DNA from: Acidimicrobiia bacterium
GTDB taxonomy: Bacteria; Actinomycetota; Acidimicrobiia; Acidimicrobiales; CATQHL01
Direction of reading: 5' to 3'
Assembly (NCBI GenBank): GCA_021296415.1
Contig: JAGWAL010000012.1
Span: 1-55,093, forward strand
DNA length: 55,093 bases
Numbering within the stretch: position 1 is the first letter of the stretch; every line of letters begins with the position of its first letter. The notes beneath the pieces were generated by a model. The model did not search any database. It was given only the letters and a program-made list of their open reading frames with translations, and was not told the origin of the DNA. Positions 47,820 through 55,093 of the stretch are shown here, piece after piece. Both the position numbers and the translations under genes were made by a program.

Positions 47820-48284
47820 ATGAGACTCCAACCCGGCGACCCGGCACCGGATTTCAGGCTGATGAACCAGGACGGCGAAGAGGTCTCGCTGGCGGACTTC
47901 GCCGGGCGGAGAGTGGCACTGTTCTTCTACCCGAAGGCTCTGACCCCCGGTTGAACGAAGCAGGCCTGCGGCATGCGTGACATCGCCGACGAACTGCCGG
48001 AGGAGGTCTCCATCCTGGGAATGAGCGCGGATCCACCCAACCGCCAGAAGCGCTTCGACGAGAAGCACGACCTGGGTTTCGGGTTGCTCTCGGATCCCGA
48101 CAACTCCGTAACCGGCGCCTTCGGGGCGCGCAGCGAGAAGAAGATGTACGGCAACACCTTCATTGGCACCACCCGGTCGGCCTTCCTGATCGACGTCGAG
48201 GGCCGCATCGAGCAGGCCTGGTACGGGATCAGCCCGAAGGACACGCCGTTTGAGATCCTGGCCGCCCTCGAGGAGAGCGAGTGA
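47820..48284 (+). CDS. bcp: BCP-type peroxiredoxin, probable selenoprotein (Sec45)
   Basis: A thiol-dependent peroxidase of the BCP/PrxQ group, 154 residues if TGA 47952-47954 is read as selenocysteine. The frame from ATG 47820 gives LQPGDPAPDFRLMNQDGEEVSLADF, then FFYPKALTPG-TGA-TKQACGMRDI. E. coli BCP has PKAMTPGC at this place, with its peroxidatic Cys at residue 45 and a second Cys at 50; here the TGA is codon 45 and Cys is at 50. The rest is normal (DEKHDLGFGLLSDPDN, SAFLIDVEGRI) to a TGA at 48282. AGGA precedes the ATG. A hairpin follows the TGA. Without Sec insertion only a 44-residue stub forms. Confidence 0.85.
47969..47988 (+). promoter_or_regulatory. Candidate bacterial SECIS hairpin
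   Basis: CGGCAUG (47969-47975) can pair with CAU-C-GCCG (47981-47988), with one bulged C, around the loop CGUGA (47976-47980). The loop begins 21 bases after the TGA and has G at its second position, as bacterial SECIS loops usually do. The pairing lies wholly within the coding region, as required for SelB-dependent decoding. It was found by eye; no energy calculation was made. Confidence 0.55.
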
Positions 48285-48715
48285 GCGGAGCGTCGCTGCC
48301 GGCACCCGCCTCGGTTCTCCCGCACAGGCCCCCATTCCTGCTGCTGGACGAGGTCACCCTGCTGGTGCCCGGCGAACGGGCCGAGGGCTCCTGGCGTACG
48401 ACCGGTTCGGAGACGTTCTTCGCCGGCCACTTCCCGGGCCGGCCCACGTTGCCGGGCGTCCTGATGACCGAGGCCCTTGCCCAGCTGGGCGCCTACGCGG
48501 TCCTCAGCGACGAGCGCCTGACCGGCAGGTTGCCACTGTTCGGGGGCATCGACGGCGCCCGTTTCCGTCGCCAGGTGCTGCCCGGTGAGCGCCTCGACCT
48601 GCGTGTGGAGGTGCTCCGCCTGTCGGCCCGCGCCGGGCGGGCCGCGGGGGAGGCGACGGTGGACGGGGCGGTGGCCTGCACCTGCGAGTTGATGTTCGTG
48701 GCGGTGCCCGCCTGA
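48281..48715 (+). CDS. fabZ: FabZ-like (3R)-hydroxyacyl-ACP dehydratase
   Basis: A hot-dog-fold protein of 144 residues. LPHRPPFLLLDEVTLLVPGE and the active-site HFPGRPTLPGVLMTEALAQLGAYA (catalytic His and Glu, given in part) match FabZ. GIDGARFRRQVLPGERLDLRVEV is the second conserved strand. GTG 48281 overlaps the peroxiredoxin stop as GTGA, so its translation may be coupled to full reading of the selenoprotein. It faces the fab operon tail-to-tail and probably supplies the dehydratase that the operon lacks. Confidence 0.87.
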   Translation: MSGASLPAPASVLPHRPPFLLLDEVTLLVPGERAEGSWRTTGSETFFAGHFPGRPTLPGVLMTEALAQLGAYAVLSDERLTGRLPLFGGIDGARFRRQVLPGERLDLRVEVLRLSARAGRAAGEATVDGAVACTCELMFVAVPA

Positions 48716-48734: not shown

Positions 48735-49916
48735 TCAGGCGGCTGGTGGCGGGCTGATGACGAGGCAGCCGTTGTGGCCGCCGAACCCGAACGAGTTGGA
48801 AAGGCTGGGACCCGGCTCCCAGTCGCAGGGGTCCGGCGCCACGATCCGGATGGGGGCCATGTCCGGGTCAGGATTGACGTAACCGGCGGTCGGCGGTAGC
48901 ACGCCGTGGTGCATCGACATGATGATGGCGACCGCCTCGACGGCGCCGGCAGCCCCGAGGGCGTGACCGGTCACTCCCTTGGTCGAGGTCACGAGGGGAC
49001 CGGGCGTGCCGAAGACCTTCGCGATGGCCTCGGCCTCGTTGGCGTCATTCAGCGCTGTGGAGGTGCCATGGGCGTTGATGTGGAGCACCTCGGAGGGCGT
49101 GATCCCGGCGTCGGCGAGTGCCAGTTCCATGCAGGCCACCGCGCCCGCACCGCCGGGCGCCGGAGCGGTGATGTGGTAGGCGTCGGCGGTGCTGGCGTAG
49201 CCGGTGATCTCGGCGAGGATCCCGGCGCCACGGCCCTGGGCGTGTTCGAGTTCCTCGAGCACCACCACCCCGCACCCCTCGGCCTGCATGAAGCCGTCGC
49301 GATCCCGGTCGAACGGGCGGGAGATGCCCACTCGCGACAGCGCCGTCATGTTGGCGAAGCCCTGGAGGCCGGTCGGGGAACTCGAGCATTCCGAGCCGCC
49401 GGCCAGCATCACGTCGCAGCGGCCGTGGCGGATCAGTTCGGCGGCGTTGCCGATGGACTGGGTGGCGGAAGCGCAGGCAGTGGACGTCACCTCGCAGGGC
49501 CCCTGGTAGCCGTAGCGCATGGAGACTGCCGCAGCGGCGGCATTCGCCATCATCATCGGGATCAGGAACGGTGTGACGCGCTTGGCGCCCAGCGCGAAAT
49601 GCCGTAGCACGTAGGTCTCGATGCTCATCAGGCCGCCCACGCCGGTGCCGATCCAGACGCCGACGCGCTCCGGGTCCGCTCGCAGGTCGCCGGCCTGCTC
49701 CAGCGCCTCGGCGGCACCCGCCAGGGCGAACTGGGTGAACCGGTCGTGGCGTCGCATCTCCTTGGCGTTGGCGAAGTGCGGGGCCGGATCGAACCCCACC
49801 ACCGAGCGCAACCCCTCGGGTGGTTCGCTCAGCAGTCCGGCGAAGAAGTCCTCCCGGCCGATCCCGCAGGCCGCCAGGACGCCGAGGCCGGTGACGACCA
49901 CCCGGCGCCGGCTCAT
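48735..49916 (-). CDS. fabF: Beta-ketoacyl-ACP synthase II
   Basis: A condensing enzyme of 393 residues. The Cys148 nucleophile lies in [20 protein letters not shown], and the two histidines in [15 protein letters not shown] and [15 protein letters not shown]. The C-terminal [14 protein letters not shown] is standard. It elongates acyl-ACP with malonyl-ACP. ATG 49916 overlaps the acpP stop by four bases, last in the operon. Confidence 0.95.
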
Positions 49917-50164
49917 CCCAACTTGGCGGCAATCATCGCGAAGGCGGCGCCGATGGTCTCGATGTCCTCGAGTTCCTCCTCCTCCACGGTCACGTCGAAC
50001 TCTTCCTCGAGGGCCATGACCAGTTCCACGAGGTCGAGGCTGTCGGCGTCGAGGTCGTCGGCGAAACTGGCCTCGAGGGTCACCTCGTCCTCCGCGACCG
50101 ACAGCACGTCGACCGCACAGCGCCGGAACCGTTCGAAATGGTCGTTACTGCTCACTGCATTCAC
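49913..50164 (-). CDS. acpP: Acyl carrier protein
   Basis: An 83-residue acidic helical protein. Ser42 in [19 protein letters not shown] is the site of the 4'-phosphopantetheine arm. [20 protein letters not shown] is the usual helix III region. It lies between fabG and fabF, the common order for the fatty-acid ACP. Confidence 0.95.
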
Positions 50165-50179: not shown

Positions 50180-50911
50180 TCAACTCATACTCAAGCCGCC
50201 GTCCACGGGGACAACGGCTCCGGTGATGTATCCGGCCTCCGCTGAGACCAGGAATCGTACGGTGGCCGCCACTTCGGCCGTCGTTCCGAAACGGCCGAGC
50301 GGGACCGCAGCGCGGATCTCTTCCTGCCGTTTCTCGCTCAGTGCATCGATCATATCGGTCTCGATGGGGCCCGGAGCCACCACGTTGACGGTTACGTTCC
50401 GCCCCGCCAGTTCCTTGGCGACCGAGCGCGCCAGCCCCACGAGTCCTGCCTTGGAGGCGGCATAGTTGGCCTGCCCGGCCTGCCCGCCCAACCCGACCAC
50501 CGAGGAGATGAGCACGACGCGTCCCCAGCGGGCGCGCAGCATCGACCGCACACCCCGCCGCAGGAGCCGGTACCCACCGGTCAGATTCGTGTCGAGCACC
50601 GCCGTGAAGTCCTCCTCGCTCATGCGAAGCAACAGGTTGTCGCGGGTGATGCCGGCGTTGGACACGAGGATCTCCACGGGTCCGAGCGCCTCCTCGGTGG
50701 CACCGTAGGCGGCGTCCACGCCGGCGGCATCGGTCACATCGCAGCGGATCGCAACCAGCCCCGCCTGTTCGGCGCACTCCGGCGGGCTGGTCCGGTAGGT
50801 GACGGCCACACGATGCCCGGCCTCCTGCAGCGCCACGGCACAGGCCAAGCCGATACCCCGAGCTCCACCGGTCACGAGCGCCACCCGGCCGGTGTCGGCC
50901 GTGCCGTTCAC
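50180..50911 (-). CDS. fabG: 3-oxoacyl-ACP reductase
   Basis: A short-chain dehydrogenase of 243 residues. The NADPH motif VTGGARGIGLACAVALQEAG, the NAG motif VSNAGITRDNLLLRM and the catalytic Ser-Tyr-Lys (ISSVVG, NYAASKAG) are all present. VAPGPIETDM and VVPVDGGLSM close the fold. It overlaps fabH by four bases. Confidence 0.94.
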   Translation of the reverse strand: MNGTADTGRVALVTGGARGIGLACAVALQEAGHRVAVTYRTSPPECAEQAGLVAIRCDVTDAAGVDAAYGATEEALGPVEILVSNAGITRDNLLLRMSEEDFTAVLDTNLTGGYRLLRRGVRSMLRARWGRVVLISSVVGLGGQAGQANYAASKAGLVGLARSVAKELAGRNVTVNVVAPGPIETDMIDALSEKRQEEIRAAVPLGRFGTTAEVAATVRFLVSAEAGYITGAVVPVDGGLSMS

Positions 50912-51840
50912 AGCTCCCAGCGCATGAGCGCGCTGGCGGCGGTCATGCCGGCGCCGAAGCCGACCAGCAGCACGATGTCGCCGGCGCGTAGGCGGCCGCC
51001 GGCGGCGGCGTCGGCGAGCCCGAGCGGGATGGAGGCGGAGGAGGTATTGCCGGTCCAGCTGAGAACCTGCACGGTTTGATCCTCGGAGATCCCGAGTCTC
51101 TCGCAGGCGCTCTGGATGATCCGGGCGTTCGCCTGATGGGGGACGACGAGGTTCACGTCGGTGGTGCCGAGTCCGGCCGACGCCAGGGCGCGTTCGCAGG
51201 TGGCAACCATGATGCGAACGGCCTGGCGGAAGACCTCCCGGCCCTCCATGTAGATGAAGCGGCCGAAATCGCAGTACAGCGATTTCTCCAACTCCCCGTT
51301 GCAGTCCAGCGCCCAGCTCAGGAGGGCGTTGTCCTCCGCCGGTGTCGCCGAGATCACCACGGCACCGGCGCCGTCGCCGAACAGCACGGCAGTGGCGCGA
51401 TCCTCCCAGTCCACGAAGCGGCTGAGGGTCTCCGAACCGATCAGCAGGACGTTCTCGGCGCCCGCCAGGATCAGTCCGTGGGCCACGTTGAGTCCGTACA
51501 CGAAACCCGAGCAGGCGGCGTTCAGATCGAAGGCGCCACAGCGGGCGCCGAGGCTCGTCTGCACCGAACTGGCCGTGGCGGGGATCACGCGATCAGGTGT
51601 CGTCGTGGCGAGGATGATCGCATCGAGGCTCTCGGCGGGCAGGCCGGACATCTGCAGGGCCCGTTGGCCGGCGTCGATCGCCAGCGAGCGCGTTGAGCCG
51701 CCGATGCGCCGCTCCTTGATGCCGGTGCGCTCGGTGATCCAGGTGTCACTCGTGTCGAGGGTCTCGGCGAGGTCGTGATTGGTGATGACACGCTCGGGAA
51801 GGGCTGTGCCGTACCCGGTGATGCGACTGCCCCTGCTCAT
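50908..51840 (-). CDS. fabH: Beta-ketoacyl-ACP synthase III
   Basis: Starts fatty-acid synthesis by joining an acyl-CoA to malonyl-ACP. The 310-residue protein has Cys110 in FDLNAACSGFVYGL, His in VPHQANARIIQ and Asn in SWTGNTSSASIPL, the KAS III triad. GRFIYMEGREVFRQAV contributes to the substrate pocket. TWITERTGIKERRI is the typical N-terminal mark. Confidence 0.95.
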   Translation of the reverse strand: MSRGSRITGYGTALPERVITNHDLAETLDTSDTWITERTGIKERRIGGSTRSLAIDAGQRALQMSGLPAESLDAIILATTTPDRVIPATASSVQTSLGARCGAFDLNAACSGFVYGLNVAHGLILAGAENVLLIGSETLSRFVDWEDRATAVLFGDGAGAVVISATPAEDNALLSWALDCNGELEKSLYCDFGRFIYMEGREVFRQAVRIMVATCERALASAGLGTTDVNLVVPHQANARIIQSACERLGISEDQTVQVLSWTGNTSSASIPLGLADAAAGGRLRAGDIVLLVGFGAGMTAASALMRWEL

Positions 51841-51895: not shown

Positions 51896-53071
51896 TCAGT
51901 CCGTGCGCAACCAGGCGATCGGCTGGTTGATCGTGACCCGCTCGCCGTCCACGGCCAGATAGTCCATCACAACGCCGTTGAAAGGGGAGCGCACCGGCTC
52001 GCCGTTCACCTCGCCGAGTACGGCGCCGGTGGCGATCCGGGAACCCTTGCAGTCGGGGCGTGCGGGGGTGAACACGCCCGCGGCCGGCGCCACGACCAGC
52101 CGCTCGTAGGCATAGAGCGACTCGCCCTCGGGGCGGGCGGACTCGGTGGCACTCCGGGCCCCGACGGATTCGAGAAGCGGATCGATGTCGCTCGGGCTCC
52201 GCACGCTGAGGGTCGCCGGGGCGCGGTCGATGCGCTTGGCCAGTCCCGTCAGCGCGCTCCCGGGGCCGAGTTCAACGATCGTCTCGCCGCCGGCGTCCAG
52301 CAGGCGGCGGATCGTCTGCTGCCAGCGGACGGGGCTCGTCAGCTGGCGGGCCAGGAGGCGGGGCCATGGACGAGCGCTCTCGTACGGGGCGGCGTCGACG
52401 TTGGCGTAGACCGGGGCGTCGGGATCCTGGAAGTCGGCCTGGGCGATCGCCTTCGTGAGGCGGTCGTAAGCCGATGCCATGAAGGGCGTATGGAAGGCCC
52501 CGCCCACCTGCAGCCGCATGACCCGCTTGGCACCCGAGCGGCGTGCCACGTCGCCGGCGGTGGCGACGTCGGCGGGTGAGCCGGCGATCACGACCTGACC
52601 GGGAGCGTTGTAGTTGGCGATCCAGACCTTTGGGCCGGCCTCCTCGCAGGCCGCCTCCACCTCGGCATCGGCCAGGCCCAGCACGGCGGCCATAGTGCCC
52701 TCCTGCTCCTCGGAGGCCAGCTGCATGGCCTCCCCGCGCTCGGCGACGAGATAGGCGGCCTCGCCGAAGTCCAGGATGCCTGAAGCCACGAGGGCGCTGT
52801 ACTCGCCGAGGCTGTGCCCGGCGTGCGCGTTCGGCATCAGACCGACCCTGGCAACCGCGTCGAGCACGAGCATGCTCATCACGAACGTGGCGAGTTGGGC
52901 GTTGCGGGTCTGCCGGAGCTGGTTGGCATCGGCCTCCAGAAGCAGGGAGGCGATGTCCCGGCCGGTGGTCCGGCCGGCCTCCTCCACGAGTTCCCACGAC
53001 GGCTCGTTCACCCACGCCGCTCCCATGCCGGGAGCCTGGGACCCCTGCCCGGGGTAGGTGAAGACGATCAT
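51896..53071 (-). CDS. fabD: Malonyl-CoA:ACP transacylase fused to a barrel-sandwich domain
   Basis: First gene of the operon, 391 residues. The transacylase occupies residues 1 to about 300: FTYPGQGSQAPGMGAAW, the nucleophile Ser87 in HAGHSLGEYSALVASG, and the His in GGAFHTPFM. The last about 70 residues (325-391) form a separate domain, LVVAPAAGVFTPARP... GSRIATGAVLGEVNG... SPFNGVVMDYLAVDGERV... QPIAWL, shaped like biotinyl/lipoyl domains. The modified lysine (MKM or DKA) is missing. Plain FabD is about 310 residues, so this is a fusion; its role is unknown. Confidence 0.92.
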   Translation of the reverse strand: MIVFTYPGQGSQAPGMGAAWVNEPSWELVEEAGRTTGRDIASLLLEADANQLRQTRNAQLATFVMSMLVLDAVARVGLMPNAHAGHSLGEYSALVASGILDFGEAAYLVAERGEAMQLASEEQEGTMAAVLGLADAEVEAACEEAGPKVWIANYNAPGQVVIAGSPADVATAGDVARRSGAKRVMRLQVGGAFHTPFMASAYDRLTKAIAQADFQDPDAPVYANVDAAPYESARPWPRLLARQLTSPVRWQQTIRRLLDAGGETIVELGPGSALTGLAKRIDRAPATLSVRSPSDIDPLLESVGARSATESARPEGESLYAYERLVVAPAAGVFTPARPDCKGSRIATGAVLGEVNGEPVRSPFNGVVMDYLAVDGERVTINQPIAWLRTD

Positions 53072-53618: not shown

Positions 53619-55093
53619 CTATGTTTTGGTACGACTAGGTGGGGTGGCTTGCCCGTAGTCGTTGTTGCCCCAGCAAGTGATGCTGTGGTCGGTGTTGATT
53701 GTGCACAGATGATCGAGGCCACCTGCGATGGCCATGTAGGCGCCGTCGGGCGGGATGGCCGGCGGATTGCCCCAGCAGACGCTGGTCTGATCAGTGCGTA
53801 GTGCGCAGGTGTGGTAATCGCCCGCGGTAATCGCCGCATAGGTACCACTGGGCGAATCGGTTTGGTCCGATTCATTGCTGCCCCAGCATGTGATGGTTTG
53901 GTCGGTGCCGAGGGCACAGGTATGCCAGTCGCCGGCAGTGATGGCCGTGTAGGTCCCAGTGGGTGGGATGACTTCGCCATGCTGATGGGTTCCCCAACAG
54001 GCGATTGTTTGGTCAAGGCGGAGGGCACACGTGTGGTACGCGCCGGCACTGATGGCTACGTAGGCACCCCATGGTGAGTTGCTTTTGCCCCACGCGTTGT
54101 CCCCCCAGCAAGCAACGGTGTGGTTGGTGCTAAGAGCGCACGTGTGTATGAGCCCGGCGGCGATGGCCGTGTAGGTGCCATCCGGTGGCCTGGCTTGACC
54201 AGCCTGATTGCCACCCCAGCAGGTAATGGTCTGGTCGGCATCTAGAGCGCAGGTGTGCCAGTAGCGAGCGGCGATAGCTGTGTAGCCCTCGGTCACCGGA
54301 GACGATTCGACGGTGCTTGAAGGCTCAGATTGTGTAGTAGGAGGCGTCGTATCTGTGCCGACGGCGGTGCCGGGTGGGTTGGACTGGCCGTACTTGTTGT
54401 CGCCCCAGCAGCTGATGATTTGGTGGGTGCCGAGGGCGCATGTATGTCGGAGACCGCCAGCAACCGCTATGTAGGTGGCAGCGGAAAGGTCGGCTGGCCT
54501 GTATCCGCTGCCGTTGCCCCAGCAGGTGATGGTTTGGTCGGTGCGGAGGGCACACGTGTGGTCCGAGCCGGCGGTGACGGCTACATGGGTGCCGCTGGCT
54601 GGACTGCTTTGGTCCCACCCGTTGCTACCCCAGCAGGTGATGGTCTGGTCGGTGCCTAGGGCGCACGTGTGGAAGTCGCCGGCCGTGATGGATGTGTAGG
54701 TGCCAGCGGGCGCGTTGGTTAGGCCGCCGCCGTTGCTACCCCAGCAGGTGATGGTTTGGTCGGTGCGGAGGGCACAGGTATGCCAGCCGCCGGCGGCGAC
54801 AGCTGTGTAAGTGCCCGGCGGTGGGCTGGCTTGGCCGAACTCGTTGTCGTCCCAGCACGTGATGGCTTGATCGGTACCGATGGCGCACGTATGTGCGAGA
54901 CCAGCGGCGATGGCCGTGTAAGTGCCAGTGGGTGGGTCGGCCAAGAAACGACCCCAGCACGTGATGGTCCCATCGATGTTGAGCGCACAGGTGTGATAGG
55001 CACCGGCTGTAACGGCCGTGTAGGTGCCATCCGGTGGGCTGGCTTGACCCAGCTGGTTGTGGCCCCAGCAGGTGAGGGTCTGGTCGGTGTCGA
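53619..55093 (-). CDS. RCC1-repeat beta-propeller protein (partial, open at right edge)
   Basis: At least 491 residues, with the N-terminus outside the window. Twelve full repeats and one partial of about 36 residues follow the pattern TAITAGDWHTCALGTDQTIT-CWGSN-xxGQ-PPxGTY. Nearly every repeat has two cysteines (HTCAL and TCWG), which suggests export and one disulfide per blade. A Ser/Thr/Pro linker (PPTTQSEPSSTVESSPV) after the seventh visible unit divides two propellers. The frame is continuous to base 55093; a TTG at 54944 is not the true start. RCC1-type repeats usually bind proteins; the target is unknown. Confidence 0.87.
   Translation of the reverse strand, partial: DTDQTLTCWGHNQLGQASPPDGTYTAVTAGAYHTCALNIDGTITCWGRFLADPPTGTYTAIAAGLAHTCAIGTDQAITCWDDNEFGQASPPPGTYTAVAAGGWHTCALRTDQTITCWGSNGGGLTNAPAGTYTSITAGDFHTCALGTDQTITCWGSNGWDQSSPASGTHVAVTAGSDHTCALRTDQTITCWGNGSGYRPADLSAATYIAVAGGLRHTCALGTHQIISCWGDNKYGQSNPPGTAVGTDTTPPTTQSEPSSTVESSPVTEGYTAIAARYWHTCALDADQTITCWGGNQAGQARPPDGTYTAIAAGLIHTCALSTNHTVACWGDNAWGKSNSPWGAYVAISAGAYHTCALRLDQTIACWGTHQHGEVIPPTGTYTAITAGDWHTCALGTDQTITCWGSNESDQTDSPSGTYAAITAGDYHTCALRTDQTSVCWGNPPAIPPDGAYMAIAGGLDHLCTINTDHSITCWGNNDYGQATPPSRTKT
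53640..55093 (-). repeat. Tandem DNA repeats encoding RCC1 blades
   Basis: On the plus strand CCCAGCAGGTGATGGT-TGGTCGGTG and close variants recur about every 108-120 bases from near 53666 to the window edge. They encode the repeating protein blades. Near-identical neighbours imply recent duplication or gene conversion. Confidence 0.8.

Follow-up and report, generated by a model that had tools for sequence, protein, structure and literature searches.

A lysine-free, biotin-carrier-shaped domain in fatty acid synthesis operons of deep-branching Actinomycetota, fused to FabD or encoded beside it

We report that the FabD (malonyl-CoA:ACP transacylase) encoded in a 55,093-nucleotide stretch of an Acidimicrobiia genome (contig JAGWAL010000012.1, hereafter the window) ends in a domain with the shape of a biotin carrier and without the biotin lysine. 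This tail is shown here to be the fused form of a small protein of type II fatty acid synthesis (FAS-II) operons that is otherwise encoded between fabD and fabH. The protein is a widespread, previously unrecognised component of the FAS operons of deep-branching Actinomycetota, and searches of the open-licence literature found neither the domain nor its gene described. The genes that accompany it suggest a role in linking malonyl-CoA supply to fatty acid synthesis. We know of no described protein that would couple a bacterial carboxylase to FabD for direct handover of malonyl-CoA. The domain is conserved, small and expressible, and its two forms, a separate gene and a FabD fusion, give a concrete handle on this handover; it adds a component to FAS-II operons and suggests a bacterial counterpart to the lysine-free relatives of the biotin carboxyl carrier protein (BCCP) known from plants as BADC.

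The window FabD (51896..53071, minus strand) is a protein of 391 residues, of which residues 1–282 score 277.5 bits with the TIGR00128 fabD model, whose cut-off is 260.9. Its transacylase part (residues 1–290; 52202..53071, minus) carries the motifs GHSLGE, which holds the nucleophile, and AFHTPFM. The AlphaFold2 model of the full-length protein, made from 14 sequences, has a mean pLDDT of 90.7 and superposes on the solved FabDs 1mla and 6u0j over ~305 residues, with a TM-score to target of ~0.93. Ordinary FabD/MCAT proteins (TIGR00128; PDB 1mla, 6u0j, 2qc3) share their fold and catalytic motifs with window residues 1–305 but end at about 305–315 residues; the window FabD goes on into a flexible linker (approximately residues 303–319; 52115..52165, minus) and a barrel-sandwich domain of the biotinyl type (residues 316–391; 51899..52126, minus), both of which the ordinary enzymes lack. 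The linker falls below a pLDDT of 50 at residues 307–319, and within the genus its protein sequence changes faster than either flanking domain. The 75 residues behind it are modelled at a pLDDT of ~83–96 and form six strands (323–327, 332–336, 351–355, 358–361, 366–371 and 384–389). Modelled alone, the domain reaches a mean pLDDT of 88.9, and 64 of the 81 modelled residues score at least 90. Among solved structures, biotin carboxyl carrier domains fit this model best (5gua and 2evb, TM-score 0.73–0.84; 1bdo, 0.70). The first-pass annotation had read the C-terminus as a barrel-sandwich domain, at coordinates (51896–52170) that take in the linker as well, and had named disorder or an ordinary FabD extension as what would speak against it. 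An ordinary disordered tail is ruled out by the confident models of both the full-length protein and the domain alone, the disorder being confined to the linker, and ordinary FabDs align to the window protein only up to about residue 305. The tail is almost certainly a real domain, biotin-carrier-shaped and without the biotin lysine.

The sequence profile of the family (31 members) points the same way. Searched against the PDB, it matches BCCP-type chains (2d5d, E 2e-5; 1bdo, E 2e-3), and the alignment to 2d5d opens a four-residue gap in the family exactly at the AMKM hairpin. At this position the window reads LGEVNGEPVRSP, with the hairpin V-N-G-E at residues 355–358 (E-V-N-G-E, residues 354–358; 51998..52012, minus) and no lysine. 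The window domain has a single lysine, residue 342, which sits in a different loop and is not a conserved position. A longer turn, also lysine-free, is retained in several members (e.g., VTSSNGQEVPV), and the (A/V)MKM biotinylation motif is absent from every aligned member, fused or separate. The lack of the target lysine, noted before from the window letters, thus holds in the alignment and in the gap against BCCP structures. Matches to PF00364 are weak (16 of 31 members, best 3e-6; the window domain at 13.2 bits and E 0.08, below the 22.1-bit threshold), and none of the members checked exceeds the cut-off of any Pfam or NCBIfam model. The biotinyl domains of BCCP and carboxylase gamma subunits (PF00364; 2d5d, 2evb, 1bdo) share the fold, the length and the whole-domain profile with the window domain. 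They carry the AMKM lysine, which the aligned family members lack, and they go with biotin carboxylase, whereas the family domain is fused to FabD or sits in the fab operon. Fold, profile and alignment together show a biotin carboxyl carrier ancestry for the domain, which no longer has the AMKM hairpin and so can no longer carry biotin.

Could the domain simply be a BCCP left behind in the fab operon and kept without function? The lost lysine and the many FabD-bearing families that do without the domain would fit such a relic. However, its dN/dS within the genus (0.08–0.26) is as low as that of the transacylase part (0.11–0.19), its residues include some that are invariant across very distant genomes, and the independent gene is kept at the same place; a degenerate relic is disfavoured and, in our estimate, extremely improbable. 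The conserved core comprises ER(L/V)VVxPxxGxF, GxxxGxV, VxSxFxGxxMGxLA and GERVxxxQPxAWLR. Barrel-sandwich domains in other proteins can bind ligands or partners, and this general precedent is all that we found in favour of a domain that regulates FabD through a bound small molecule or a modification at some other residue. We consider this very unlikely, as the alignments contain no lysine, cysteine or histidine conserved family-wide. We also considered the domain as the relic or replacement of a lost stand-alone AccB, and rejected this: TIGR00531 finds only BC-BCCP fusions (frames of 585–704 aa), below its cut-off, and genomes with and without the domain do not clearly differ in this. No E. 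coli-type AccD was found over the cut-off.

In the window, fabD is followed on the minus strand by fabH (50908..51840; PF08541, PF08545), fabG (50180..50911; PF13561), acpP (49913..50164; serine motif DSLDLVEL) and fabF (48735..49916), the last operon gene present, and fabZ (48281..48715, plus; PF07977) converges on it. A peroxiredoxin-like gene together with fabZ lies beside the fab operon here (47973–48715) and at many loci of the class. We surveyed Actinomycetota in two samples, one of 396 genomes from the phylum and one of 198 from the class. The FabD match runs through the lysine-free domain in about 40 of 60 relatives; some of the others encode the domain on its own, immediately behind fabD. 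In the wider class and phylum, and in many families of both samples, it is a stand-alone gene of ~90–110 aa between fabD and fabH. This gene adjoins fabD in all 30 class genomes for which both positions are listed, and the order in the loci read closely is fabD, domain, fabH, fabG, acpP, fabF; nearly all loci read have the domain gene between fabD and fabH, and fabH accompanies it as constantly as fabD does. The description of the window protein as a FabD fusion is correct for the window and its relatives, but often the domain is a gene of its own. Fusions also occur in the separate families f121, f71 and f105, besides the window's order. In seven families (f55, f56, f57, f122, f127, f130 and f132), FabD is present, and fabD and fabH stand too close together to leave space for the domain. 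A query of genome contigs with the three-domain chimera found seven named MAG loci, the nearest named relative being MAG COS4_bin_33, which at the FabD locus yields values identical to those of the congener G002; a plasmid search gave no match. Family f20 lacks both FabD and the domain, and two loci (L122 in G449, L123 in G452) contain small lysine-free domain-like ORFs away from any fatty acid synthesis gene.

The operons link the domain to a carboxyltransferase. Downstream sequence is long enough in 22 stand-alone operons of the class, and 20 of these have a PF01039 carboxyltransferase gene after fabF; in the window, unlike in many relatives, no carboxyltransferase gene follows fabF. Four loci outside the class (L146, L147, L156, L164) show domain, fabH, acpP, fabF and carboxyltransferase, with no adjacent co-directional fabD. 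Furthermore, in two genomes (G569, G332) the domain and carboxyltransferase genes directly succeed each other as bare pairs, with no FAS genes around; in most others the two are several genes apart in the same operon, and across most of the window's order, with its FabD-fused domain, they are unlinked. The carboxyltransferase type of the class (CT') is divergent; in f89 and G332 the partner is of the ordinary full-length type. Where CT' stands at another locus, it adjoins a citrate synthase-like gene (by eye; another user of acetyl-CoA) in G003, G007, G059, G148, G337, G307 and G031 (L171, L170, L172, L167, L168, L173 and L179, respectively), an adjacency that recurs across genera in genomes with a FabD fusion.

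Carboxyltransferases bind acyl-CoA with the N-half and present the C-half to carboxybiotin and BCCP. CT' is 30% identical to ordinary subunits in the N-half and 53% in the C-half, against 61% and 67% among ordinary subunits. Two N-half motifs that are near-invariant in ordinary subunits, D(S/G)(G/A)GARIQEG and GPCAGGAVYSPA, are replaced in CT' by TSGADVxEG and GPCVSGPALLLG, and the C-half motif RKAYGGAYIVMDS is kept. Since near-invariant motifs of the acyl-CoA side are lost, CT' may not be a subunit of acetyl-CoA carboxylase. Substrate type could not be read from the position of S. coelicolor PccB Asp422, which is Ile in all FAS-linked carboxyltransferases and Val, Leu or Ile in ordinary ones and is thus not discriminating.

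These features raise the possibility that CT' and the domain form a biotin-free enzyme, for example a decarboxylase of malonyl-ACP or malonyl-CoA (cf. MdcD/MdcE) or a carboxyltransferase whose substrate is bound to ACP, and that the fused domain would recruit this enzyme to FabD. Both partners are degenerate carboxylase parts, one without the biotin lysine and the other with its acyl-CoA-side motifs replaced; they stand in a fab operon together with ACP, CT' is weakly similar to MdcE, and an ordinary carboxyltransferase is also present in each genome checked. On the other hand, CT' keeps best the half that faces biotin, which such an enzyme would not need, and the ordinary full-length partner in f89 and G332 does not fit either; we regard this explanation as unlikely. 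The broader statement, that deep-branching Actinomycetota carry a biotin-free pseudo-carboxylase in FAS, in which the lysine-free domain and a CT' with a rebuilt acyl-CoA half would act on malonyl-CoA or malonyl-ACP (e.g., as a decarboxylase, a transferase or a gate) and would, in the window's order, be kept at FabD by the fusion, seems to us equally improbable.

We observed that the domain and CT' tend to be present or absent together. CT' profile scores in the 198 class genomes are bimodal (at least 587 versus at most 560 bits), and by this division 61 genomes have both, 11 the domain only, 3 CT' only and 123 neither (Fisher 1e-35). Because genomes share ancestry, a count by family is fairer, and it gives 22 families with both, 7 with the domain only, 1 with CT' only and 17 with neither (2e-6). 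In all three CT'-only genomes, the operon is cut by a contig end. CT' was not found with its profile in the window's own genome, which is 77% complete, nor in the congeners G001 and G004, and it is absent from the domain-containing families f12, f32 and f121. It is present in the congeners G002, G003, G006 and G007 and in the sister genus G008; the window's family is therefore scored among the seven domain-only families because its own genome is incomplete. The two are inherited together even where they are unlinked, with the domain fused to FabD and CT' at another locus, and this co-inheritance is our best evidence for a working partnership between the domain and a carboxyltransferase.

Outside the class, most lineages have the domain without CT', which leaves room for a purely FAS-internal role, and in f59, f94, f91, f65, f71 and f105 the domain stands in the fab operon while the genomes have only ordinary carboxyltransferases, located elsewhere; CT' is therefore not a universal partner of the domain. 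As the main alternative to a carboxyltransferase partner, the domain could be a scaffold that holds FabD, FabH and/or ACP, serving FAS-II initiation or FabD oligomerisation, with the carboxyltransferase link being secondary. It would explain why, phylum-wide and also in lineages without CT', no genes accompany the domain more constantly than fabD and fabH, and why fused FabDs are found in several distinct families (f121, f71, f105 and the window's order). The one genome inspected of the f23 clade (G418, L109) also fits, as it keeps fabD, fabG, acpP and fabF in an operon without fabH, and the domain is absent too. However, such a scaffold does not lead one to expect the bare domain–carboxyltransferase pairs of G569 and G332, nor the joint presence of the fusion and a CT' encoded at an unlinked locus, and we consider it possible but rather doubtful.

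The reading that we prefer, tentatively and at somewhat less than even confidence, is that the domain is a non-catalytic docking or assembly subunit between a carboxyltransferase and FabD/FabH. The domain would bind the carboxyltransferase of an acyl-CoA carboxylase dedicated to FAS, on the face that normally meets BCCP; that CT' is better kept in its biotin-side half than in its acyl-CoA half speaks for this reading. FabD would be held nearby through the flexible linker or, in the split form, through a non-covalent contact, perhaps together with FabH, and malonyl-CoA would be handed to ACP near the site of its making. In the window's lineage, the partnership with FabD would have been made permanent by fusion, with the carboxyltransferase gene elsewhere in the genome, beside citrate synthase in congeners. 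The first-pass annotation had offered an acyl-CoA carboxylase, the ACP or a membrane partner as what the domain might dock. Nothing points to a membrane partner. Docking to the carboxylase is the best supported of the three, though unproven: the carboxyltransferase of the operons, the two bare pairs and the shared presence and absence in 198 genomes give it genomic support, and physical binding stays a prediction from sequence.

Two known systems resemble the proposed subunit. BADC, described as the lysine-free, BCCP-like "glue" of plant acetyl-CoA carboxylase (ACC), is likewise BCCP-like without a biotinylation motif and linked to acyl-CoA carboxylase and fatty acid synthesis in plastids (PMC11926652). 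The BADC proteins are larger plant paralogues that act on BC-BCCP and are a physical part of the acetyl-CoA carboxylase complex, whereas the window domain is bacterial, has 75 residues and is known from its genomic ties to FabD, FabH and a carboxyltransferase gene; the likeness is drawn from the published description, 75 residues resolving kinship among biotinyl domains poorly. Similarly, the actinobacterial epsilon subunits (AccE, PccE, TfAcCCE; PF13822; PMC7835884, PMC13118682) are small and genetically linked to a carboxyltransferase gene. The epsilon subunit of the T. fusca acyl-CoA carboxylase binds the carboxyltransferase, promotes assembly and raises activity, and its authors themselves compare it with BADC (PMC7835884). 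For the epsilon subunits, a non-catalytic assembly role has been shown; for the window domain, such a role is proposed. The window domain differs in its biotinyl fold and in its place, mostly between fabD and fabH, and neither the full window protein nor any of the 31 family members matches PF13822 (E up to 0.1).

Two further observations concern the neighbourhoods. In a small-genome lineage without the domain (G448, f122; L110), fabD is immediately preceded by the genes for the carboxyltransferase and BC-BCCP. In the window, an ORF of at least 490 aa (53619–55093, minus strand) carries degenerate repeats of the form CWGxNxxGQ..GTYTAIAAGxxHTCAL, which look RCC1-like by eye, and runs past the window end.
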